Below, in pieces: positions 36,893 through 51,697 of a stretch of DNA of 64,000 nucleotides. Position numbers and translations under genes: made by a program. The DNA comes from Chloroflexota bacterium (GTDB lineage Bacteria; Chloroflexota; Anaerolineae; Anaerolineales; Anaerolineaceae), in NCBI GenBank assembly GCA_021372725.1, contig JAJFTV010000088.1:62001-126000 (forward strand). Reading direction: 5' to 3'. A model generated the notes under the pieces. It had not been told where the DNA came from. It saw only the letters and a program-made list of their open reading frames with translations, and searched no databases. The number at the start of each line of letters is the position of its first letter. The first letter of the stretch is position 1.

Positions 36893-37321
36893 CTAAACCG
36901 CCCAATCCGTTTTGAGGGGATTGGGCCCTTTCTTACGCATCTCTTCGGTCATTTCCCTGATTGTCTCCGCAAAGCGTTGTCCCTCGCTGGCGCTGATCCA
37001 GCGCAGCCAGATGCGGTCTTCGTCAAAACCGGCGCTTTTGAGGATTTCTTTTAATGCCACCACCCGGCGTCTTTCCTTGTAATTGCCCTCCTGGTAGTGA
37101 CAATCACCGGGGTGGCAGCCGCCGATCAGAATGCCATCTGCACCGGAGAGATCAGCCTTCAGCAGGTAAATGGGATCCACTGCCCCGCTGCACATCAACC
37201 GAATAATCCGGACGTTCGGCGGGTACTGCAAGCGGCTGGTACCGGCCAGATCGGCACCCGTATAGGTGCACCAGTTGCATAAAAAAGCGATGATTTTGGG
37301 CTCGAAAGGTTGATCAGTCAT
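36893..37321 (-). CDS. mvhD: MvhD-like [2Fe-2S] electron-transfer subunit
   Basis: This 142-residue homologue of the delta subunit of methyl-viologen-reducing hydrogenase bridges an electron donor to HdrA. Conserved motifs are CNWCTYTGADLAG, RIIRLMCSG, and GGCHPGDCHYQEGNY, whose Cys bind [2Fe-2S]. In other organisms MvhD can also connect formate dehydrogenase or FlxAB modules to Hdr, so hydrogenase need not be involved. It sits between the HdrA-GltD-HdrA fusion and the FrhB-like gene, spaced 11-29 bp, within one operon. Confidence 0.9.
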   Translation of the reverse strand: MTDQPFEPKIIAFLCNWCTYTGADLAGTSRLQYPPNVRIIRLMCSGAVDPIYLLKADLSGADGILIGGCHPGDCHYQEGNYKERRRVVALKEILKSAGFDEDRIWLRWISASEGQRFAETIREMTEEMRKKGPNPLKTDWAV

Positions 37322-37350
37322 AATATTCTCTACACGTTTCCATGAATTTA

Positions 37351-40300
37351 TCAGGTATGGATTTCTGCCAGGGCGGCATCCAGCATGGACGCGACCTGCA
37401 AAAATTCAAATCCTCTCTGTTGTGAAGCCTTGTTGGGACAGGCAGCCACACAGGCGCCGCAGCCCTGGCAGAGAACCTCCACCACTTCGGCAGTTTTTGC
37501 ACCGGGTTCCAGCCGGCGCGCATTGTAAGGGCAAACCTCCACGCAGATGCCGCAGGCGGAGCACAACCGCGGGTTTACCTGGGCGATGATGGGTGTGGCG
37601 GTGAGTTCCTTTTTTGCCAGCAGTGTGACCGCCCGGATGGAAGCTGCCTGCGCCTGGGCCATGGTTTCGTCCAGAGAGCGCGGTGAGTGAGCCAGACCGC
37701 ATAAGAAGATGCCGTCAGCAGCAAAATCCACCGGGCGAAGCTTGACGTGCGCTTCCAGGAAAAAGCCTTCTGCTGTGAGGGGGAGTTTGAGGAGTTGGCT
37801 CAATTTACTATTATCCGGTTCGGCCTCAATCCCGGCGCTCAGGATGACACTGCTGCATGGCAGGGTCACTTCTTCGGCATCCGGCTGTACCATTACCTTT
37901 ACCTGCAATGCACCATTTGATGCACTCACCTGCGGCGGTTGATCTGCGTCATATTCCAGGAAAAGCACTCCGGCATCACGAGCTTCGCGGTACTGCTTTT
38001 CGCGAAAACCGTAGGTGCGGATATCGCGATACAGAATGGTGACGGGCGTACCCGGGCTGCGTTTCTTGATTTCCAGGGCATTCTTGACCGCCTGGGAACA
38101 GCAAATCCGCGAGCAGTACGGGTGCTCGTCATTGCGCGATCCCACACACTGGATCATTACCACCGATCCTGCGTCGTTGCTGACAGGGATGATCTGATCG
38201 AATTTCTCTTCCAGTTCATGCTGGGTCATCACGCCCGGTAAACGGCCATATTCGTACGTGGTAGGCTGAATCTCGCGCCCACCGGTGGCTACTACAATCA
38301 CGCCATGCTGGATTTCGATGGTCTCGCCATTCGCGGAGCGGATTTGGCTGGTGTACTGCCCCACGTAACCGCTGACTTCGGAAACTTCGCTTTCCATCAT
38401 CACGGTGATGAGCGGCTGCCGGCTGATTTTGTCGATGGTGTCTTCAAGCAGCTTTTGGGGATTACTGCCTTTCAGGCCGGTTTTGATGTGCCGCAAATGA
38501 CCGCCCAGGCTGGCTGTCCTTTCCACCAGGTAAACCGGAAAGCCCTGTTCTGCGATGGACAGGGCAGAAGTCATGCCTGCCAGTCCGCCGCCGATCACCA
38601 GGGCACAATGCTCGATGTTTAAAGTTCCACGTTTTAATGGATGCAGCCGGCGGGCTTTGGCAACTGCCATGGAGACAAGCTGCTTGGCCTTTTGGGTGGC
38701 AATGGCCGGGTTGCTGCGGTGCACCCACGAATCCTGTTCACGGATGTTGGCCAGCTCGAACAGATGCGGGTTTAAACCCGCCTGGCGGATGGTATCCTGA
38801 AAGAGGGGTTCGTGCGTGCGCGGGGTGCAACTGGCCACCACCACGCGGTTGAGGTTCAGCGATTTGACAACCTCGGTAATTTTCTCCTGGGTATCCTGCG
38901 AGCAGGTATACAGGTTTCTCTCGGCATGCACCACACCGGGCAGGTCTTTGACGTACTCAACCACGTTGGGCACGTCCACAATGCCGCCGATGTTGATGCC
39001 GCAGTGACAAACGAATACACCCACGCGCGGCTCTTCTTCGCTCACATCGCGTTCTGGCGGGTAGACCATTTCGCGGGTCAGTGTGCCGCGCGCTGCGGTC
39101 AGCGTGCCAGAGGCTTTGGATGCGGCGCAGGAAGCCTCGATGACGGTTTCGGGAATATCCTTGGGTTCTGCAAAAGCCCCGGCCACATAGATCCCTTTCC
39201 GGGAGCTTTCGCCAGGCTGATACAGTTCCGCTTCGGCAAAGCCGTATTCATTCAGGTCAATACCGATTCGCTCCGCCATCTCTCGTGTAGCGGACGTGGG
39301 TTTGAGCCCCACAGAGAGCACAACCAGCTCGAATTCTTCTTCGTGCGGCACGGGTTTGCCATCTTTTTCAAAGGTGGCATAACTCAGGCGCAGATTTTTA
39401 CTGCCGGGCACTTCTTTGACCGCAGAAACCATGCTGCGCATATAACGGACACCCTGTTCTTTCTCTGCCCGTTCGATATAGGCATCGAAGCCTTTACCAA
39501 AGGCACGGATGTCCATGTAGAAGATGGTGGGTTCGATCGAGGAGTCATGTTCCCGGGCGATGAGGGCTTCCTTGGTGGCGTACATGCAACATACTGAGGA
39601 ACAATAACCCTGGTCGCAGCTAATGTCACGCGAACCCACACATTGGATCCAGGCCACCTTGTGCGGATGGGCGCCGTTGGACGGGCGCTGCACAATACCT
39701 GAAAACGGGCCGGAAGCGCTCAGCATGCGCTCAAATTCAATGCTGGTCACCACGTTGGGATAACGCCCGTATCCGTATTCAGGGCGGATGTTCGCGTTGA
39801 CGGGCTCCAACCCGGGGGTCAGGATGACCGCTCCCACGTCCAGGTTGATGATTTCTTCCACCTGGTTATGGTCGATTGCCTTGGCCTGGCAGGCGTAGAC
39901 GCACTGCAGGCATTCCGAACAGATACCGCAGCTCAGACAGCGTGCGGCCTCCAGTTTGGCCTGTTCTTCGGTAAAACCTTGATAGACTTCGGCAAAATCG
40001 GTTTTGCGTTGGGCAGCCGGGCGGGATGACATTTCAACCCGATCCACTTTTGCCACGCTTTCCGCAGCCATCTTGTGCAGGATTTCATGCTGCTCCAGCT
40101 TGACGGCCGGCGGAGCAGGCTGGGTGATCTGGATGGGTTTGCCGGCCAGGTACTGGTCGATGGATCTGGCTGCCTTGTGACCGGCGGCGATGCCGTCGAC
40201 AATGAAGGACGTGCCCGTGACCGCATCGCCGCCGGCAAAAATACCCGGCTGGCTGGTTTCCAGCGTATCCGGGTTGACGCGGATAAAGCGGCCGCGAACG

Positions 40301-41907
40301 GTTTCGATTTGGTTGTTGAGCAAGCTTAATTCGGGAAACTGGCCGGTGGCAAACAACACTACATCGGCCGGGATGATCTCTTCCGTATCAGGAAATTCCG
40401 TGAAATCCGGGCGGCCTTCCACAAAGCCGCGGAAATCGACCGTCACACAGCGCACGCCGGTGATTTGACCGTCCTGGTTGGTGATCTCCTTGAAGGTGCG
40501 CGAGGGATAAACCTGGATGCCTTCTTCCTCGGCGTCCCGCACTTCCCAATCATGGGCGGGCATTTTCTCGCGGCTCTCCAGACAGGACATGCCCACCCAC
40601 GAAGCTCCCAGCCGTATGGCCGTCATGGCGGTGTCGATGGCCACGTTCCCGCCGCCCAGCACCAGCACGCGTTTATTTTTTACCAATTCAGCGGTTTCAT
40701 CGAGGGCCGGCTTATCAGCCATGTCTTTCTGCCATTGCAGGCTGACATTGCGCAAAAAGGTGATACCGGACAACACGGCGGGCAGATCAGCGCCCGGAAT
40801 GGGCAGCTTGGCGCCCTTGTGTGCGCCGATGGCGGTAAAAACGGCATCGAAGCCCTGATCGAACAGGGCGGGGATGTCATTGACCGGTGAATTCAATCGA
40901 AGCTCAACCCCCTCAGCCAGGATTTCGTCGATTTCAGCCTGGACAAGTTCATACGGCTGCCGATAGGAGGGTACCCCCACCCGCATCATACCTCCGGCGA
41001 CCGGAAGCGCCTCAAAAACGGTTACAGCATGCCCCTGGCGAACCAGGTCGAGCGCGCAGGTCAACCCTGCCGGCCCGGATCCGATGACCGCCACGCGTTT
41101 TCCACTTTCAGGCGGCTGCACCCGGTTGACCGGTTTTAGCTCGTCGGGGTGTGACTGGGCCCAATCGGCGACAAACCGTTTGAGCGCCATGATATTGACG
41201 GGGTTGTCACCTTCACCGCGCGAGCAGGCATCCTCGCAGCGGTGATTGCAAACCCGCCCGCAAACCGACGGGAAGGGATTGTCCTCCCGGATGGTGCGGT
41301 AGGCATCGGCGAAGCGGCCTTCGCGGATCAGTGCGACATAACCCTGCGCACGCTGGTGAATGGGGCAGGCATCGCGGCAGGGAGCCATACCCAGTTTCTC
41401 AATGGCATACGTATTGGGAATAGCCTGCGGATACAGTTTGTAGATGGCTTTTCGCTCCGACAGCTCTTCGTTGAATTGATCCGGCCGGGTGATCGGGCAG
41501 GCTGCCGAACAATCACCGCAACTGGTACAGGATTCCTTGATCACATAACGGGGATGCTTGAGAATTTTGGCGGTGAAATTACCCGCTTCTCCGTTCACCT
41601 CGAGCAGCTCGGAGGTGGTGAGTATTTCGATGTTCAGATGCCGCCCCACCTCGACGAGTTTGGGAGACATGATGCACATGGCGCAGTCGTTGGTGGGGAA
41701 GGTCTTGTCCAACTGTGCCATGACGCCGCCGATGGCAGGGGCGCTGTCGAGCAGGTAAACCTTGATGCCGGCTTCTGCCAGATCGAGTGAGGCCTGCATG
41801 CCTCCAATCCCGGCTCCCACCACCAGGGCTGCCCCGACCGGTTTTCGGCTGTTATTCTGACCACAGTTCTGACCACTGGTCAGAATCAATTCCACGTGTT
41901 CGTTCAT
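37351..41907 (-). CDS. Giant HdrA-GltD-HdrA fusion flavoprotein
   Basis: This is a 1518-residue multi-flavin, multi-Fe-S oxidoreductase. In order: HdrA FAD domain (VVGAGIGGMQASLDLAEAG at 29-47; DCAMCIMSPKLVEVG at 74-88); ferredoxin motif CTSCGDCSAACP (127-138); a complete GltD/NfnB-like module (CRDACPIHQ at 177, CGRVCNHRCEDAC at 216-228, FAD site VAVIGSGPAGLTCALDL at 272, NAD(P)H site LVLGGGNVAIDTAM at 415); the rest of the first HdrA (CLSCGICSECLQCVYAC at 657-673, QCVGSRD, YCSSVCCMYATKEA); then a second full HdrA from ~960 (VFVCHCGINIGG; FAD site VIGGGLAGMTSALS; two C-terminal [4Fe-4S] motifs, CSACGICVEVCP and CQGCGACVAACP). It should let NAD(P)H exchange electrons with Hdr flavin and ferredoxin. 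GGAG lies 5 nt before the start, 10 bp after hdrB. Confidence 0.88.
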   Translation of the reverse strand: MNEHVELILTSGQNCGQNNSRKPVGAALVVGAGIGGMQASLDLAEAGIKVYLLDSAPAIGGVMAQLDKTFPTNDCAMCIMSPKLVEVGRHLNIEILTTSELLEVNGEAGNFTAKILKHPRYVIKESCTSCGDCSAACPITRPDQFNEELSERKAIYKLYPQAIPNTYAIEKLGMAPCRDACPIHQRAQGYVALIREGRFADAYRTIREDNPFPSVCGRVCNHRCEDACSRGEGDNPVNIMALKRFVADWAQSHPDELKPVNRVQPPESGKRVAVIGSGPAGLTCALDLVRQGHAVTVFEALPVAGGMMRVGVPSYRQPYELVQAEIDEILAEGVELRLNSPVNDIPALFDQGFDAVFTAIGAHKGAKLPIPGADLPAVLSGITFLRNVSLQWQKDMADKPALDETAELVKNKRVLVLGGGNVAIDTAMTAIRLGASWVGMSCLESREKMPAHDWEVRDAEEEGIQVYPSRTFKEITNQDGQITGVRCVTVDFRGFVEGRPDFTEFPDTEEIIPADVVLFATGQFPELSLLNNQIETVRGRFIRVNPDTLETSQPGIFAGGDAVTGTSFIVDGIAAGHKAARSIDQYLAGKPIQITQPAPPAVKLEQHEILHKMAAESVAKVDRVEMSSRPAAQRKTDFAEVYQGFTEEQAKLEAARCLSCGICSECLQCVYACQAKAIDHNQVEEIINLDVGAVILTPGLEPVNANIRPEYGYGRYPNVVTSIEFERMLSASGPFSGIVQRPSNGAHPHKVAWIQCVGSRDISCDQGYCSSVCCMYATKEALIAREHDSSIEPTIFYMDIRAFGKGFDAYIERAEKEQGVRYMRSMVSAVKEVPGSKNLRLSYATFEKDGKPVPHEEEFELVVLSVGLKPTSATREMAERIGIDLNEYGFAEAELYQPGESSRKGIYVAGAFAEPKDIPETVIEASCAASKASGTLTAARGTLTREMVYPPERDVSEEEPRVGVFVCHCGINIGGIVDVPNVVEYVKDLPGVVHAERNLYTCSQDTQEKITEVVKSLNLNRVVVASCTPRTHEPLFQDTIRQAGLNPHLFELANIREQDSWVHRSNPAIATQKAKQLVSMAVAKARRLHPLKRGTLNIEHCALVIGGGLAGMTSALSIAEQGFPVYLVERTASLGGHLRHIKTGLKGSNPQKLLEDTIDKISRQPLITVMMESEVSEVSGYVGQYTSQIRSANGETIEIQHGVIVVATGGREIQPTTYEYGRLPGVMTQHELEEKFDQIIPVSNDAGSVVMIQCVGSRNDEHPYCSRICCSQAVKNALEIKKRSPGTPVTILYRDIRTYGFREKQYREARDAGVLFLEYDADQPPQVSASNGALQVKVMVQPDAEEVTLPCSSVILSAGIEAEPDNSKLSQLLKLPLTAEGFFLEAHVKLRPVDFAADGIFLCGLAHSPRSLDETMAQAQAASIRAVTLLAKKELTATPIIAQVNPRLCSACGICVEVCPYNARRLEPGAKTAEVVEVLCQGCGACVAACPNKASQQRGFEFLQVASMLDAALAEIHT

Positions 41908-41917
41908 GCATCTCCGA

Positions 41918-42769
41918 TCATTGCAGTAATTCCAATCGGTTGAGAAGCTGCACCGGATCGATCAGGTGCAGCTTCCACCAGGCTTTCGATTCGGGCAGGC
42001 CAAAAGCCAACCCCATCAATTCGGTGAAATAGAAGATGGGAAAAGGCTCTTTGGATTGACGCATTTCAAGGTTGAGCTGGCACAACGGGCAACTGGTGAC
42101 AATGGCGTCCGCACCGGCTTCACGGGCAAAATCCACCAGGCGTTGAACCATGCGCGCCGCCACTTTAGGTTTGGTAAAAGACAGGCCTCCCCCGCAGCAG
42201 TCTGTGGCATACGACCAGGATACCGGTTCGGCACCCAGGACGGAGAGAATTTGCCTCATAAAGACCGGATTATCCGGATTTTCAAACCGGGTGATTTCCG
42301 ATGGGCGCACCAGCAGACAGCCGTAGTAATCGACCACCTTTAGCCCGTTGAGCGGATTTTTCACCTGCTGCTTTACCCGCTCCAGGCCGATTTGCTGTAT
42401 GATGACTTCCAGCGGTGTGCGGATTTCAACCGAATCTTCGAAGGTGAACCCGGCGGCTTCTTCCACCATCTGGCGCTGTTCAGGTTGAAAGCGCAGGGCA
42501 TGTTGAGTGGTTTTATGCCGGTTGTAACAGGCTGCACAGGGCATCACCACATCGCGTGCTTGCCGTTGTGCAATGGCAATGTTGCGCCCCGGCAGAGCCA
42601 GCGATAAATCCTGGTTCAGGCTGTGCGCCGAGGATGCACTGCAACAATTCCAGTCGGGTAAATCGTACAGGGGAACGCTGAGTGTTTGAAATACGGCCCG
42701 TACCGACTGATCAAATTCCTTTGCGGTCGAGTGCAGGCTGCAGCCAGGGTAATAGGAAAATTCCATCAT
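41918..42769 (-). CDS. hdrB: HdrB-like CCG-domain subunit (copy 1)
   Basis: The 283-residue homologue of heterodisulfide reductase subunit B has two complete CCG motifs, each expected to bind an unusual non-cubane [4Fe-4S] cluster: YYPGC, WNCCSAS, PCAACYN; and YYGCLL, TDCCGGG, SCPLCQLN. These are the sites that cleave heterodisulfide in methanogens. The bacterial substrate is unknown and may be a disulfide, a persulfide or only an electron relay. It follows hdrC by 7 bp and precedes the fused HdrA by 10 bp. Confidence 0.9.
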   Translation of the reverse strand: MMEFSYYPGCSLHSTAKEFDQSVRAVFQTLSVPLYDLPDWNCCSASSAHSLNQDLSLALPGRNIAIAQRQARDVVMPCAACYNRHKTTQHALRFQPEQRQMVEEAAGFTFEDSVEIRTPLEVIIQQIGLERVKQQVKNPLNGLKVVDYYGCLLVRPSEITRFENPDNPVFMRQILSVLGAEPVSWSYATDCCGGGLSFTKPKVAARMVQRLVDFAREAGADAIVTSCPLCQLNLEMRQSKEPFPIFYFTELMGLAFGLPESKAWWKLHLIDPVQLLNRLELLQ

Positions 42770-42776
42770 AAAGTTC

Positions 42777-43337
42777 TCACGGGGTATTTTTATCTATGCC
42801 TGAGGAATCGGTACCGCTCGTATGCACATAAATGTGCCTGATCTCATCCCGATTCTTGACCGGTTTTGGCAACAGCGGGGCTTTGCCTTTCAGGAGCATT
42901 TTCAGGATGGTTTTTACATCGGTGGTCAGTTTCATGGTTCGCAGGGTGAGAATTCCTACCAGCGATGCTTCGTGCATACGGCCCATAAGGCGTGTCAAGC
43001 CCAGGAAAAGGGTGTGGAATTTGACCGCATCGGGTTCACCCACGCGGGCATGTTCCCGGTATGCCATTTGCCGCAGGGCATCCATGATACGGGCGATGTC
43101 AATTTCATTCGGGCAGCGTGTACCGCAGGTTTCGCAGGATGCACACACCCATATATCCGAACTGGACAGCAGGCGTTCTTTTTGGCCAAGCTGTACCATG
43201 CGCAGAACACGGTCAGGGCCGTACTGCATCTCGGCCGTTACCGGGCAGCCTGAGGTGCATTTGTGACAGTGATAACAAAGTTGTACGTTTTGCTCACTTA
43301 GGGTATTGATCTGTTGGACGAATTCTGCTGCGAGCAT
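42777..43337 (-). CDS. hdrC: HdrC-like iron-sulfur subunit (copy 1)
   Basis: It has 186 residues. Two [4Fe-4S] motifs, CYHCHKCTSGCP (21-32) and CASCETCGTRCP, are followed by IDIARIMDALRQMAYRE, matching HdrC, the wire between HdrA and HdrB. The C-terminal ~90 residues beyond the standard fold are longer than usual and contain a Met/Leu/Lys-rich helical part and a polar tail. It starts 2 bp after the HdrA stop, so translation is coupled. Confidence 0.88.
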   Translation of the reverse strand: MLAAEFVQQINTLSEQNVQLCYHCHKCTSGCPVTAEMQYGPDRVLRMVQLGQKERLLSSSDIWVCASCETCGTRCPNEIDIARIMDALRQMAYREHARVGEPDAVKFHTLFLGLTRLMGRMHEASLVGILTLRTMKLTTDVKTILKMLLKGKAPLLPKPVKNRDEIRHIYVHTSGTDSSGIDKNTP

Positions 43338-43339
43338 CT

Positions 43340-45046
43340 TTACACCACCTCATCCAGCATGGCCAGTATCTGGTTGGGCCGCCAGTTGTGCACCTGGCTG
43401 GCCTTGTTGGGGCAGGCAGTCACGCAGGCTCCGCAACTTTGGCACAGTGAGGCATTCACAGTTGCATAATTCCAGACCGGGTGGATCTGGCGCGCCTCAT
43501 ACGGGCAGGCTTTTACGCAGGCACCGCAAGCCGAGCACAGCTCCTGGATCACCGTGGCAACCAGCGGTGAAAGCGTCATCTCTTCATTAGAGAACATCTG
43601 CAATACCTTGGCGGCGGCTCCACTGGCCTGGGCAGAGGTTTCAGGGATATCCTTGGGCCCCTGGGCGGTCCCGGCCAGAAAGATGCCGGCGGTAAGCGTT
43701 TCCACCGGGCGCAACTTGATGTGGGCTTCGTTATAAAAGCCGTAGGCATCGCTGCTGATATGCAGGCGCTGCCCCAGGTCAATGGCTCCCTCGGCAGGAT
43801 ACATGGGTGTGGCAAGCACCACCAGGTCGGCTGCCACTTCCACCGCCCGATCAGTTAGTGTATCGGCTCCCCAGACGATCACCTTGTTTCCATCCTCGAA
43901 GACCTTGCTGACCTTGCCGCGCAGATACAGCACCTGGTGATCTGTCATGGCACGCTGGACGTATTCATCGTAGCCTTTTCCGGCCGAGCGGATGTCGATA
44001 TAAAAGACATACGCCTGCCCATAAGGAACCAGTTCCCTGTACATCATGGCTTGTTTGGCTACGTACATGCAGCATACCTTGGAGCAGTAGCTCACGCCGT
44101 GTTCGCGGTCGCGCGAGCCGGCACATTGCACAAATACAATCTCCTGCGGAATTTTCCCATCCGACGGACGGCGAACATTGTTGTCGCGCAGCATGGTTTC
44201 AAAAGCCAGACCGTCGATCACGTCAGGAATCTCACCGCTGCCATACTCGGGCAGCAGGGATGGATCGTAAGGATGCCAGCCGGTGGCCACCACCACGGCA
44301 CCCACATCGATTTTTTCGATTTTCGGGTTATCTTCTTCTGTTAAAACATCCAGCGTGATTTGAAAGTTGCCGATGTACCCGGCGGATTCTCTGACCTGTG
44401 TGCGGGTTAAAACGCGGATTTGCGGGTGTTGCTGAACCCGCTCCACCATTTTTTGCAGCAAATCCGGTGCCGCCCTGAAATTCAGATAGGAACCGGATAA
44501 TTTTGCCATATTGCCACCCAGCACGGATTGCTTTTCGATGAGTGTGACCGGAAAACCTGCATCGGCAATATCCAGCGCGGCCTGCATCCCGGCAATTCCA
44601 CCGCCAATGACCAGCGCGCTGCGGTTGACGCTGAATTTCAGCTCGCTCAGTTCCTCATTTTTACTGACCTTTTCAATGATCGAGCGAGTGATAGCGATGG
44701 CTTTGGCTGTGGCGGCTTCGGGTTCGTCTTGATGTACCCACGAGCACTGCTCACGGATGTTGGCGCTTTCGAACCGGAAGGGGTTCATGCCCACACTTGC
44801 AACAGCCCGTCGGAAGGTGGTCTCATGCATGGCCGGTGAACAGGCGGCCACCACCACGCCATCCAGGTTGTAAGCCTTGATACTGTCCTTGATCAACTGC
44901 TGGCCGGGATCGGAGCACATGTATTTGTAGTCGGTGGCAAATACCACCTGGTCATGCAACTCAACTTCTCTGGCTACGGCTGCCACATCCACTACCCCGG
45001 CGATGTTATGACCACAATGACAGACAAAAACGCCGATTCTGCTCAT
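43340..45046 (-). CDS. hdrA: HdrA flavoprotein
   Basis: This 568-residue HdrA has a standard layout: N-terminal domain VFVCHCGHNIAGVVDV with TDYKYMCSDPGQ and VVAACSPAMHE (1-110), FAD domain from ~143 (VIGGGIAGMQAALDIADAG), FVQCAGSRD and YCSKVCCMYVAKQA, and two C-terminal [4Fe-4S] motifs CSACGACVKACP and CQSCGACVTACP. HdrA carries the bifurcating FAD in known Hdr complexes. The N-terminal half of the inserted ferredoxin segment (LDCAxC) is reduced here to a short SYLNFRAAPD loop. It overlaps the preceding HdrA-like gene by 4 bp. Confidence 0.9.
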   Translation of the reverse strand: MSRIGVFVCHCGHNIAGVVDVAAVAREVELHDQVVFATDYKYMCSDPGQQLIKDSIKAYNLDGVVVAACSPAMHETTFRRAVASVGMNPFRFESANIREQCSWVHQDEPEAATAKAIAITRSIIEKVSKNEELSELKFSVNRSALVIGGGIAGMQAALDIADAGFPVTLIEKQSVLGGNMAKLSGSYLNFRAAPDLLQKMVERVQQHPQIRVLTRTQVRESAGYIGNFQITLDVLTEEDNPKIEKIDVGAVVVATGWHPYDPSLLPEYGSGEIPDVIDGLAFETMLRDNNVRRPSDGKIPQEIVFVQCAGSRDREHGVSYCSKVCCMYVAKQAMMYRELVPYGQAYVFYIDIRSAGKGYDEYVQRAMTDHQVLYLRGKVSKVFEDGNKVIVWGADTLTDRAVEVAADLVVLATPMYPAEGAIDLGQRLHISSDAYGFYNEAHIKLRPVETLTAGIFLAGTAQGPKDIPETSAQASGAAAKVLQMFSNEEMTLSPLVATVIQELCSACGACVKACPYEARQIHPVWNYATVNASLCQSCGACVTACPNKASQVHNWRPNQILAMLDEVV

Positions 45047-46443
45047 AATGTTTCCATCACTTTTTCTTTTGCCGTACTGCTGTGTACGTCTGATTGAAAC
45101 AAAGCCAAAACTTTGGCAGCGGCTCCGCTGGCCTGGGCGACGGTTTCGGGAATGTCTTTGGGGCCCAATGCTGCCCCGGCAAAGAACACCCTGGCCTGAC
45201 TGCTGCCCATTGGGTTGAATTCCTCATTATCGGCAGTGAAGAAGCCATTTTCGTCGCTGTCAAGAGCCAGCAAGCGGGCGACATCAGCGCTACTGGCGCG
45301 CGGTATCACCGCAGTAGCCAGCACCACCAGGTCGGCATCAATCTCGATGGTACGGCGGGTGAGCGTGTCAACGCCCCTTACCCGTACTTTGTCACCTTCC
45401 TGGTAAATCTTGCCCACTTTTCCGCGCAGATAGGCAACCTGATCCTGTTCCTGGGCGCGGTTGAGAAATTCCTCATAGCCTTTTCCTCCGGCGCGCACAT
45501 CGATGTAAAAAACGTAGGCCTGACCATCATGCACACGATGCCTGTAAAGAATGGCCTGCTTGGCAGTGTACATGCAGCAAATCTTGGAGCAGTAGGGCAT
45601 GCCGCGCTCGGGGTCGCGTGAACCGCTGCATTGCACGAAGACCACCTCTTTGGGTTCCCTGCCGTCCGATGGGCGGCGGATCTTTCCGGCAGTCGGGCCG
45701 CTGGCGGCCAGCATACGCTCGAATGCCAGTGCATCGATCACATCGGGGATGCGCCCTCCGCCGTATTCCGGTAGACGTTGCATGGGGAACAGGTCGAAAC
45801 CGGTGGCAGCGATGACTGCCCCGACGGTCTCTTCGAAGATCTCATCCTGCTGTTCCCAATCAATGGCTCCGGTGGGGCAGAATTTTACGCATGCTCCGCA
45901 TTTGGGTTTGGCCGGATTTCCGTTTTTATCCAAGGCGGGTATTCGGCCGGCTTCCATGTCCCATTTGGATTGGAGATAGCGGCAGTTGGCCGCATCGATG
46001 ACCGGTTTGTTGGGCACGGCCTGCGGCGAGAGAGTATAGACCACCTTGCGGGGGCCGATGCCGCGCTCGAAATCCGATTCCACCTTGAACGGGCATTTTT
46101 CCTGGCACACGCCACAGCCGGTACAAAGATCCCAATTGATGTATGCAGCTTTGCGCCGGATGCGGGCGGTGAACTGGCCGTTTTCCGGTGATTTTTGAAT
46201 GGATTCCAGCTCGCTGTAGGTGTAAAGCTGAATATTTTGGTGATGACCCGCCTCCACCGTACGGGGCGTGAGGATGCACTGCGAGCAGTCGAGGGTGGGG
46301 AAAGTTTCCGAAAGCTGGGCCATGTGCCCGCCGATGGACGGTTCTTTTTCCACCAACACCACCTCAAAACCGCTGTTGGCAATATCCAGGGCGGCCTGGA
46401 TGCCGGCAATGCCCGCACCGATGATCAGCACACGCTGGTTCAT
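45043..46443 (-). CDS. Short HdrA-like flavoprotein with internal ferredoxin
   Basis: The 466-residue HdrA homologue lacks both the N-terminal CHCG domain and the C-terminal double ferredoxin. It starts directly with the FAD site (LIIGAGIAGIQAALDIANSG), keeps LDCSQCILTPRTVEAG, and contains two internal cluster motifs, CTGCGVCQEKCP and CGACVKFCPTGAI, with a further Cys (ANCRYLQ) between. FVQCSGSRD and YCSKICCMYTAKQA follow. It appears complementary to the next gene, which has exactly the parts it lacks, so the two may form one split HdrA unit. It overlaps genes on both sides by 4 bp. Confidence 0.87.
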   Translation of the reverse strand: MNQRVLIIGAGIAGIQAALDIANSGFEVVLVEKEPSIGGHMAQLSETFPTLDCSQCILTPRTVEAGHHQNIQLYTYSELESIQKSPENGQFTARIRRKAAYINWDLCTGCGVCQEKCPFKVESDFERGIGPRKVVYTLSPQAVPNKPVIDAANCRYLQSKWDMEAGRIPALDKNGNPAKPKCGACVKFCPTGAIDWEQQDEIFEETVGAVIAATGFDLFPMQRLPEYGGGRIPDVIDALAFERMLAASGPTAGKIRRPSDGREPKEVVFVQCSGSRDPERGMPYCSKICCMYTAKQAILYRHRVHDGQAYVFYIDVRAGGKGYEEFLNRAQEQDQVAYLRGKVGKIYQEGDKVRVRGVDTLTRRTIEIDADLVVLATAVIPRASSADVARLLALDSDENGFFTADNEEFNPMGSSQARVFFAGAALGPKDIPETVAQASGAAAKVLALFQSDVHSSTAKEKVMETL

Positions 46444-47312
46444 GATGGGATTACCTCAAATTGCCGGAGTAGCGGGGCGGGATCCACGTAGTGCTTGTCT
46501 ATTCCCCAATCTTCCACCGGTAAGCCCAGGGCGGCTGCCATAAGCTGTGTGAAGTAGATAATCGGCATCTCTTTCCCAGTCCTGCCGGCGCCTTCGATCC
46601 TCTGCGGGTAATCCAGGTTGAATTGGCACAATGGGCAGGCCGTTACGATGGCTTGTGCGTCGTGTTTGCGGGCAGATTGAACGATATCCCCGGCCATCAC
46701 TTTGGGTACCTCGGGTTTGGACATCATCAGATACGAGCCGCAGCACTCATCGCGATACGGGAAATCGACCACATCGCAACCGAGGGCTTTCAACAAGTCG
46801 TGCAAGATATGGGGATCATCCGGGTTGTCCAGGTTGATCTCGGCATACGGCCGAAGCAGCAGGCAGCCATAATAAGGGGCAACTCTTAATCCTTTGAGGG
46901 GATTTGTCACTCTTTTAGCCAGTTCTTCCCAGCCCAGGTCATCGCGCAGGAGCTCCAGAAAATGGCTGACCCTTGTTTTGCCTTCATAGGTTTCTTCGGT
47001 AAAATAATTGATGCGGTCCAGCATTTCCGGGTTTCTTTCCAGAAAATACTGTGACCGGCGCAGCACGTGAAAACAGACTGCGCAGAGGGTGGTCACATGT
47101 CCGCCGGCCTTCTGCGCCTGGGTGAGCAGACGGGTGGGGGCAATGAAGGCCATGGAATTTTCGGTTGCCAGCGGAAAGGTTGCTCCGCAGCATTGCCATT
47201 CGGCAAGTTCTTCCAGATGCATGCCCAATGCCTCCGCAGCGGCCCTGCCGGAACGGTCAAATCCTGCACCTTTTGTGGAAAGCGTGCAACCCGGAAAATA
47301 AGGTATGCTCAT
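46440..47312 (-). CDS. hdrB: HdrB-like CCG-domain subunit (copy 2)
   Basis: The 290-residue second HdrB is clearly distinct from copy 1. Both CCG motifs are intact: YFPGC, WQCCGAT, LCAVCFH; and YYGCLL, DECCGSY, ACPLCQFN. It pairs with the HdrC encoded 13 bp upstream and overlaps the short HdrA-like gene by 4 bp. GAGG lies upstream of ATG 47312. Having two different complete HdrBC pairs in one operon suggests two catalytic branches. Confidence 0.9.
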   Translation of the reverse strand: MSIPYFPGCTLSTKGAGFDRSGRAAAEALGMHLEELAEWQCCGATFPLATENSMAFIAPTRLLTQAQKAGGHVTTLCAVCFHVLRRSQYFLERNPEMLDRINYFTEETYEGKTRVSHFLELLRDDLGWEELAKRVTNPLKGLRVAPYYGCLLLRPYAEINLDNPDDPHILHDLLKALGCDVVDFPYRDECCGSYLMMSKPEVPKVMAGDIVQSARKHDAQAIVTACPLCQFNLDYPQRIEGAGRTGKEMPIIYFTQLMAAALGLPVEDWGIDKHYVDPAPLLRQFEVIPS

Positions 47313-47325
47313 GGGAAGAACCTCG

Positions 47326-47730
47326 CTATGTTGTGAATTTTCTTAACCCGCCAACGATGGCAATTTGGGGGAGTTCAGACAGAAGTTCTTCGGACAATAA
47401 ACCGGCTTCAATCTGGTTACCATTTTTCTGCATCCGAATCAGCCGCAGCGCTTCCATCACGCGTGGCAAATCGATCCCTTTCGGGCAGCGGGAGACACAG
47501 TTCATGCAGGCTGCACAGGTCCAGATCGTTTGCGATGCAAGAACGTCTTCAATGCCCAACTGTGCCAGGCGGATCACCTGGTTGGGAAGCAGATCCATGC
47601 TGGACGCTGCCGGACAGCCGGCGCTGCATTTTCCGCATTGGTTGCACGATAACAGCGTTTCACCGCTGATGGTTTCCACCTGGCGCACAAAATCGCCGCG
47701 CAAATTATGAATGGATATTCGAGTTCTCAT
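47326..47730 (-). CDS. hdrC: HdrC-like iron-sulfur subunit (copy 2)
   Basis: The 134-residue protein has two [4Fe-4S] motifs, CNQCGKCSAGCP and CAACMNCVSRCP, with IDLPRVMEALRLIRM after the second, as in HdrC. It is the minimal size, without the tail of copy 1. It follows the CBS-domain gene by 42 bp and precedes hdrB copy 2 by 13 bp. A weak AAGG precedes the start. Confidence 0.87.
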   Translation of the reverse strand: MRTRISIHNLRGDFVRQVETISGETLLSCNQCGKCSAGCPAASSMDLLPNQVIRLAQLGIEDVLASQTIWTCAACMNCVSRCPKGIDLPRVMEALRLIRMQKNGNQIEAGLLSEELLSELPQIAIVGGLRKFTT

Positions 47731-49923: not shown

Positions 49924-50174
49924 TTCTTTACCCTTTTGAAAGTTTATATGCCGACAGAAACGGGCATACACGGTTGAGTAATTGTGTCACAGCTTCCATG
50001 TAAATTTGTTTTCAGAAAAACTTTATATTTACAGGAACAGACCAACTTTTTTATCATACATCAATCCAATCCAATTCGCAACCAAACGGGCGATACCTGT
50101 TTCCTGCCCAAAAAGGGTGGGGTGGCAACAGAAGTGGTTCGAAAAATACCATTTTTTGAATCCCAGTTTTTTGT

Positions 50175-50203
50175 TTGACCATTTCTCAATTATTGAGTAT
50201 CCT
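50175..50203 (+). promoter_or_regulatory. Promoter of the selenocysteine tRNA
   Basis: TTGACC (50175-50180) and TATCCT (50198-50203) are separated by 17 bp, with the tRNA 5' end at 50210, exactly where transcription should begin. Confidence 0.7.
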
Positions 50204-50209
50204 TAGTGT

Positions 50210-50303
50210 GGGAGTGGATAGGTCCCGGTGGGCTTCCCGGTCTTCAAAATCGGTGGCGGGCTGTCATGCAGGCCGCGGTGGGTTCGACCCCCATCCATTC
50301 CCG
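50210..50303 (+). tRNA. selC: tRNA-Sec (anticodon UCA)
   Basis: This 94-nt selenocysteine tRNA has an 8-bp acceptor stem (GGGAGTGG with CCATTCCC, one G-U), a 6-bp D stem with a 4-nt loop, an anticodon stem CCGGT/ATCGG with loop CTTCAAA and anticodon TCA (50244-50246), a long variable arm (GCGGGCTG/CAGGCCGC, one mismatch), and a T arm GTGGG-TTCGACC-CCCAT. The discriminator is G, as in other Sec tRNAs. CCA is not encoded. The 8-bp acceptor and 6-bp D stem separate it from a suppressor or Ser tRNA. It means UGA is read as selenocysteine in some mRNAs here. selA, selB and selD are not in the window. Confidence 0.95.
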
Positions 50304-50425
50304 CCTGTCAGCCAATCTGTCAAGGCAATATTTTCCAGTCAGGTTCTTATATTTTCTTCACAATTATCACGAGAAAAAGCGTTATGATCAACAATGCAAT
50401 TGTATGAAATGTCTGGAGATAAACC

Positions 50426-51697
50426 GTGGAATCAAATGAAACCAGCGATAATTTTGGCACTTTCCAATCGTCACAAAATGGCAATACCGCTAAACCGGCT
50501 CTTATTTCATCTGAGCGGGATGAAATCATTACGCGTGCGGTCGGGCGCGTACTAAAAATTACCTCGGTGACATGGGGCGGACAGAAGCAGAAATATGTAG
50601 CCCGTTTTGTTGGCCGGTTGTATTCGGAAGATACCCCGGCTGCTTATGACAAACTGGCCGCAGACTTGAAACCGCTGGAGATTACACCCCTCTTCCGCTG
50701 GGAGGGCAGCGACCATGCGGTCATTTTAATGCCCGGCGTGATAAAAGCCAAACAAAGCCAGTCGTGGGTGAACCTGGTCTTGTTCATCCTCACCCTGCTG
50801 AGCGTTTTAGTGACGGGCGGCTTGTACGGCTCGGGAGAAGAGCTTCCCACCGGATTTTGGCCGCTGGTTCTTGCCTTTATCCAGCGCGGATGGCCGTTCG
50901 CAGTCAGCCTGATTGCCATCCTCGGGGCACATGAGTTTGGCCATTACCTGGCAGGCCGTAAACATGGCCTGAACGTATCTCTGCCGTATTTCATCCCCAT
51001 GCCATTCACCTCGTTTGGCACAATGGGAGCTTTTATCAACATGCGGGAAATCCCGCGCAACCGCCGGGTGCTGCTGGATGTGGGGATAACCGGTCCCCTG
51101 GCGGGCCTGGTGGTTGCCATACCGGTGCTGCTATTGGGATTGAGTCTTTCCGAGGTTAGCGTCCTTCCCGTCGCAGCCCAGCCGAATGCTCAGCTTCAAA
51201 TGGAAGGCAACTCGATAATTTATTTGCTGGCTAAATATATAACCTTTGGAAAGCTGCTGCCACAACCGGCAAATCTGAACGGAGCCTCCGAGCTGCTCTA
51301 CTGGGTGAAATATTTCTTTACCGGGCAGCCATTTCCTTACGGTGGTGTGGATGTGATGCTGCATCCGGTTGCCTGGGCAGGCTGGGCCGGTTTGTTGGTA
51401 ACCGGTTTGAACCTGATACCGGTCGGTCAACTGGATGGGGGTCACGTGATCAACGTGCTGCTGGGGCCAAAATGGTCGAAGCGAATTTACCCCATCATCA
51501 TGGTGGCCATGTTTGGAATGGGTTTCTTCTGGAACGGCTGGTGGCTGTGGGGCGCTATCCTGCTGCTGCTCGGCCGGATGGTTGCCGAACCACTGGATAT
51601 GATCACCCCGCTGGATAACAAGCGCAAGGCGCTGGCAATTCTTGGTTTGGTGGTTTTTGTGTTGACGATTACGCCGGTACCGTTGATCCTTATATAA
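50426..51697 (+). CDS. Site-2-protease family membrane metalloprotease (M50)
   Basis: The 423-residue protein has an N-terminal ~95-residue soluble domain, then multiple membrane helices. Zinc ligands are HEFGH (169-173) and, in a later helix, the Asp of QLDGGH (D337). Such proteases cut membrane-spanning regulators or signal remnants. FIPMPFTSFGTMGAF and GITGPLAGLVVAIPVLL are typical of the group related to plant EGY and bacterial homologues. The start is GTG with GGAG about 9 nt upstream. It lies ~120 bp after tRNA-Sec and stands alone. Confidence 0.88.
   Translation: MESNETSDNFGTFQSSQNGNTAKPALISSERDEIITRAVGRVLKITSVTWGGQKQKYVARFVGRLYSEDTPAAYDKLAADLKPLEITPLFRWEGSDHAVILMPGVIKAKQSQSWVNLVLFILTLLSVLVTGGLYGSGEELPTGFWPLVLAFIQRGWPFAVSLIAILGAHEFGHYLAGRKHGLNVSLPYFIPMPFTSFGTMGAFINMREIPRNRRVLLDVGITGPLAGLVVAIPVLLLGLSLSEVSVLPVAAQPNAQLQMEGNSIIYLLAKYITFGKLLPQPANLNGASELLYWVKYFFTGQPFPYGGVDVMLHPVAWAGWAGLLVTGLNLIPVGQLDGGHVINVLLGPKWSKRIYPIIMVAMFGMGFFWNGWWLWGAILLLLGRMVAEPLDMITPLDNKRKALAILGLVVFVLTITPVPLILI

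Follow-up and report, generated by a model that had tools for sequence, protein, structure and literature searches.

The window, a stretch of 64,000 nucleotides from a metagenome-assembled genome (MAG) of the Anaerolineaceae, contains a single tRNA gene, reported by ARAGORN as tRNA-SeC(tca) at 50210–50305 on the plus strand. The gene proper, selC, spans 50210–50303 (+), including the discriminator base G73 at 50303, and these limits come from ARAGORN, Rfam, and the alignment and covariation of relatives. Its anticodon, UCA (50244–50246, +), lies within the loop CUUCAAA (50242–50248), according to ARAGORN and direct reading of the loop. Upstream on the same strand are a −35 element, TTGACC (50175–50180; −35 to −30 relative to the mature G1), and a −10 element, TATCCT (50198–50203; −12 to −7), with a spacer of 17 nt. 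The last base of the −10 element is at −7, leaving six bases before G1, and the predicted transcription start is at 50210. The 3’ flank, CCT (50304–50306, +), does not template CCA. Downstream is a gene for an M50 (site-2-protease-type) peptidase (50426–51697, +; Pfam PF02163), a conserved neighbor of tRNA-Sec. Two fumarase subunit genes (PF05681 and PF05683; 48413–49971) are divergent from the tRNA gene, and Hdr/MvhD genes are densely clustered on the minus strand (36893–47730), with Cys throughout and no Sec. The cluster encodes, among others, an HdrA-like protein of 1518 aa, part of which is a GltD-like NAD(P)H oxidoreductase.

The sequence at 50210–50303 is a genuine tRNA-Sec gene. The Rfam covariance model RF01852 matches 50210–50302 over its full length (1–91) with 68.3 bits, above the gathering score of 47 (E 7.8e-12). 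Direct reading gives an acceptor stem of 8 bp (GGGAGUGG/CCAUUCCC), a D stem of 6 bp (AGGUCC/GGGCUU) with a 4-nt loop, anticodon and T stems of 5 bp each, a long variable arm of 4+3 bp, and a G as discriminator. In an alignment of 25 relatives, the 31 pairs remain intact in 99.6% of cells, and ten pairs show compensatory changes on both sides – no shuffled alignment scored as high, and sliding the partners destroyed the signal. G73 is found in all 75 of the non-redundant loci described below. The first-pass annotation had called the gene from its 8-bp acceptor stem, 6-bp D stem, long variable arm, UCA anticodon and G discriminator, and ARAGORN, the covariance model and the covariation all agree with it. 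The 8/5 acceptor and T stems, 6-bp D stem, long variable arm, UCA and G73, which together with a score above gathering identify selC, are shared with bacterial selC (RF01852) such as that of E. coli.

A tRNA-Sec gene has a function only with the proteins that use it, and the same annotation had reasoned that a genome without selA, selB and selD would make this one a relic. Profile searches of the MAG (3.55 Mb in 200 contigs, 92% complete, 7.2% contaminated) found all three: a full-length selA on contig C128 (561 bits, cut-off 268), a full-length selB on contig C170 (367 bits, cut-off 242), and selD on contig C159 (353 bits), so that objection fails. A single TGA lies in the selD frame, where the catalytic Cys is expected (LSNCAGUAAKLNAE). 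There is no sel operon; the three genes and the tRNA gene are scattered on four separate contigs. A nonfunctional relic tRNA, for which this lack of linkage would be the only argument, is scarcely conceivable and was rejected, as selA, selB, selD and UGA-containing selenoprotein genes are present in the MAG, the tRNA structure is under covariation, and the promoter is conserved. By established biology, SerRS would charge the tRNA with Ser, SelA would turn Ser into Sec using selenophosphate supplied by the selenoprotein SelD, and SelB would bring the Sec-tRNA to UGA codons that are followed by a SECIS hairpin.

The four separate contigs and the 7.2% contamination also leave room for the sel genes, or the contig of the tRNA, to be contaminants of the MAG, in which case the window’s organism may lack the Sec trait. 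This is very improbable: the tRNA-Sec gene stands in the gene order with the M50 peptidase gene that is conserved in the family, and the MAG’s own selA ranks with the highest-scoring ones of the family, where all 26 tested genomes with a strong tRNA-Sec match have selA.

At least six UGA-containing selenoprotein genes are present in the MAG – fdhA, selD and four genes of the AhpC-TSA family – as had been predicted from the tRNA, including the guess of a formate dehydrogenase. The FdhA-type molybdopterin oxidoreductase reads NNVDHCARLUHSSTVVG through one TGA, and 18 nt after this UGA is a hairpin with the loop GGUCU. In E. coli fdhF, too, a GGUCU loop stands 18 nt after the UGA. Four of the seven AhpC-TSA family genes (L199, L200, L201 and L202) have one TGA in the active site, within TPIUTDQ, FTFVUPTE, GFMUPFC and GFAUPHC, where U takes the peroxidatic position or belongs to a UxxC motif. 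The protein with TPIUTDQ is fused to a glutaredoxin-like domain or tail, and the two UxxC paralogues have a common hairpin, GGCGCAGUUGCGCC, 26 nt after the UGA. The search for in-frame UGA with SECIS elements was thus positive for UGA in six genes and less uniform for SECIS: a hairpin follows the UGA at all six sites, and it was significant relative to synonymous resampling at two (selD and one UxxC peroxiredoxin) but not at the other four. No UGA was found in the three copies of FlpD/MvhD in the MAG, and the CMD/AhpD family had one sub-threshold match there, also without UGA. The remark in the first-pass annotation that the Hdr proteins use Cys is borne out by the FlpD/MvhD genes and by the window’s HdrA-like proteins, which have Cys in their YCSxxCC motifs. 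FdhA, SelD, Prx and Prx-like proteins are all listed among bacterial selenoprotein families (PMC1794560), so that the six selenoproteins here fall within known selenoproteomes. They differ from these in that four of the six belong to the AhpC-TSA family, while FlpD and the HdrA motifs of the window are Cys-only.

The trait is widespread in the class. A raw tally of RF01852 matches (394 of 396 class genomes) was discarded – the E-values were bimodal, the weak group fits cross-matches to other long-arm tRNAs, and control bacteria without selA also give weak matches. With the count restricted to matches of E ≤ 1e-10, tRNA-Sec is present in ca. 295 of the 396 genomes from the class and in 50 of the 61 from the family. 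Selenocysteine use in Chloroflexota had been described as patchy, which understates the trait in this class. Of the 11 family genomes without a strong match, five have no selA and six have it, five of the latter being incomplete (64–90%). The sixth, G414, 99% complete, gives no tRNA-Sec match at E 1e-10 despite its selA; it may have a divergent tRNA-Sec or an assembly gap.

In 65 of 80 Anaerolineae relatives (L054–L133), tRNA-Sec lies at most 400 nt upstream of the M50 gene on the same strand, and the closest relatives of the window’s M50 peptidase include those of Ornatilinea, Leptolinea and other Anaerolineaceae. There is no clear terminator between the two genes in the window, so a joint tRNA-mRNA transcript covering 50210–51697 is possible. 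A run of T after the tRNA gene was considered as a terminator and rejected, because it is found at only 16 of the 65 loci.

The promoter proposed in the first-pass annotation, TTGACC-N17-TATCCT, is where it was said to be. Taken alone it is weak evidence, a single 9/12 match to the consensus in an intergenic region with four promoter-like sites (0.8 expected). It is its conservation among relatives that takes it far beyond chance. The comparison used 75 non-redundant tRNA-Sec upstream regions from the Anaerolineales (60 nt, less than 80% identical, the window included), drawn from the M50-linked and family loci and aligned at the mature 5’ end. Mean pairwise identity was 0.48 at −36 to −29, where a TTGMCA/TTTACA block is conserved, and 0.56 at −15 to −7. 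The remaining segments, −60 to −37, −28 to −19 and −6 to −2, were at chance (0.27–0.29). The −10 box is TATCCT, TATGCT or TATTCT at 69 of the 75 loci, and the base at −1 is a pyrimidine at 74 of them, which with G at +1 makes the usual YR start context. The fifth position of the −10 box is C at those same 69 loci (TATSCT or TATTCT); other tRNAs here mostly have TATAAT-like boxes. Two loci at which synteny with the M50 gene is broken (L063 and L074) retain the promoter, as do two with a tRNA-Pro gene immediately upstream (L084 and L095). In Ornatilinea apprima (L057), where ca. 1.9 kb separates the tRNA gene from the M50 gene, no promoter occupies the conserved place.

The best-scoring sigma-70-type promoter stops short of G1 by 6 nt at 22 loci and by 7 nt at 47. 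Scores of at least 8 at these two distances occur at 64 of the 75 loci; elsewhere, across 215 positions, the rate is 0.36% per position. Under sigma-70 geometry, a gap of this size predicts a start either on G1 itself or on the base preceding it. A −10 box conserved at this distance in 69 of 75 loci, placing +1 at the mature 5’ end, is the pattern of a leaderless gene; from it, transcription is predicted to start, probably, at G1 or within about 1 nt of it, giving a tRNA-Sec without a 5’ leader. The earlier suggestion that the gene has its own promoter is borne out, and the promoter’s position implies something further, a leaderless start. RNA polymerase would begin on the mature 5’ G or at most about one nucleotide from it, and RNase P would not be needed for 5’ maturation or would trim at most a nucleotide. 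At the other end, the 3’ trailer would be cut behind G73, and nucleotidyltransferase would then add CCA. The main promoter could instead be further upstream, with the −10-like box incidental. One such site, TTTACA-N18-TATCAT at 50028–50057, scores 10/12, but over the 215 positions compared in the relatives only the gap of 6–7 nt is enriched, which makes a more distant promoter decidedly unlikely.

Other tRNAs of the lineage provide a control. In two Anaerolineaceae genomes, the gap between −10 box and mature 5’ end of non-Sec tRNAs has a median of about 12 nt and is usually 8–14 nt, and only one of 72 is at 6–7 nt. In the window’s own genome, the 37 non-Sec tRNAs with a clear promoter include one with a gap of 7, one with a gap of 2 and none with a gap of 6. 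In genome G435, none of 35 non-Sec tRNAs is at 6–7 nt, and a gap of 6 is unique to tRNA-Sec. Within the same class, outside the lineage, tRNA-Sec gaps are scattered from 6 to 31 nt, and three of the 25 loci with a clear promoter are at 6–7 nt. The only comparison from another phylum is E. coli selC, which has a leader and its best −10 box 31 nt upstream, as opposed to 6 nt in the window. The leaders of the other tRNAs are also short, and tRNA-Sec is the end of a gap range rather than a wholly different class.

These numbers permit a more conventional account, in which tRNA-Sec is ordinary, has a leader of 1–3 nt removed by RNase P, and has a promoter at the short end of the lineage’s generally short leaders. 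The usual gaps of 8–14 nt in the two genomes correspond to leaders of about 1–7 nt, a 7-nt gap permits a start at −1, and the conserved −1 pyrimidine suits RNase P and could reflect its preference rather than a start site. The gap of tRNA-Sec, however, has been kept at 6–7 nt in 69 of 75 loci while the upstream DNA diverged and other tRNAs vary, and a pyrimidine at −1 followed by G at +1 favors a start at +1. We regard the short leader as unlikely. The reading preferred here, to which we assign a probability of about 0.8, is a functional Anaerolineaceae selC, served by SelA, SelB and SelD and by UGA-containing genes, whose transcription is predicted to begin no more than about 1 nt from G1.

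The 3’ end has its own peculiarity. After G73, the 75 loci read CCT (52), CT (12) or T (11), and none templates CCA. The first base that departs from CCA is T in all 75, and in other tRNAs of the window’s own genome it is T (19) or A (10). E. coli selC, unlike the window’s gene, templates CCA. Published surveys report templating for 89–93% of bacterial tRNA-Sec genes, and one of them proposes that it makes up for the poor handling of the 8-bp acceptor stem by RNase P (PMC5143459, PMC5330540). A leaderless start would remove the need for such compensation. A tie between the untemplated CCA and leaderlessness was considered and found unsupported. Because class members with leaders also do not template CCA, and only 4 of 33 other tRNAs in the window’s own genome do, the missing CCA is a habit of the lineage, not proof of leaderlessness.

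Parallels to a leaderless start come from outside the bacteria. In eukaryotes, an upstream promoter starts tRNA[Ser]Sec at nucleotide one, unlike other tRNAs, which carry leaders (review PMC8744743). The eukaryotic gene (Trsp) and the prediction made here thus have in common an upstream promoter, a start at the first nucleotide, a trailer that is cut and a CCA that is added. They differ in that Trsp has RNA polymerase III, a 9/4 fold and PSTK/SepSecS, while the Anaerolineaceae gene has a sigma-70-type promoter and SelA, with initiation at +1 only predicted. In Nanoarchaeum equitans, tRNAs are transcribed without leaders, and RNase P is missing and not needed (PMC10941002). There, leaderlessness compensates for a missing enzyme; here it would apply to tRNA-Sec only, and the other tRNAs keep leaders. 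In the open-access literature searched, we found no report of a leaderless bacterial tRNA or of a bacterial tRNA-Sec starting at +1, which does not prove that none exists.

A broader proposal can be made for the order, and we consider it somewhat better than an even bet. Anaerolineales tRNA-Sec, nearly alone among tRNAs, would start at its mature first nucleotide by means of a dedicated, deviant −10 box (TATSCT, not TATAAT) and would bypass RNase P, convergently with eukaryotes, perhaps because RNase P acts poorly on its 8-bp acceptor stem and its CCA is untemplated.

With Sec decoding operating in this lineage, genes split by UGA, such as selD, fdhA and those for peroxiredoxins, are likely to be misread in annotations. 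A working selC is in itself ordinary, and the noteworthy part is the conserved, apparently leaderless promoter. It would offer a clean test of an idea already put forward, namely that processing of tRNA-Sec by RNase P is costly on account of the unusual acceptor stem. Two escapes from that costly step may then be proposed – a templated CCA, as in most bacteria, and a start at the mature end, as in eukaryotes and, if the prediction is true, in the Anaerolineales.
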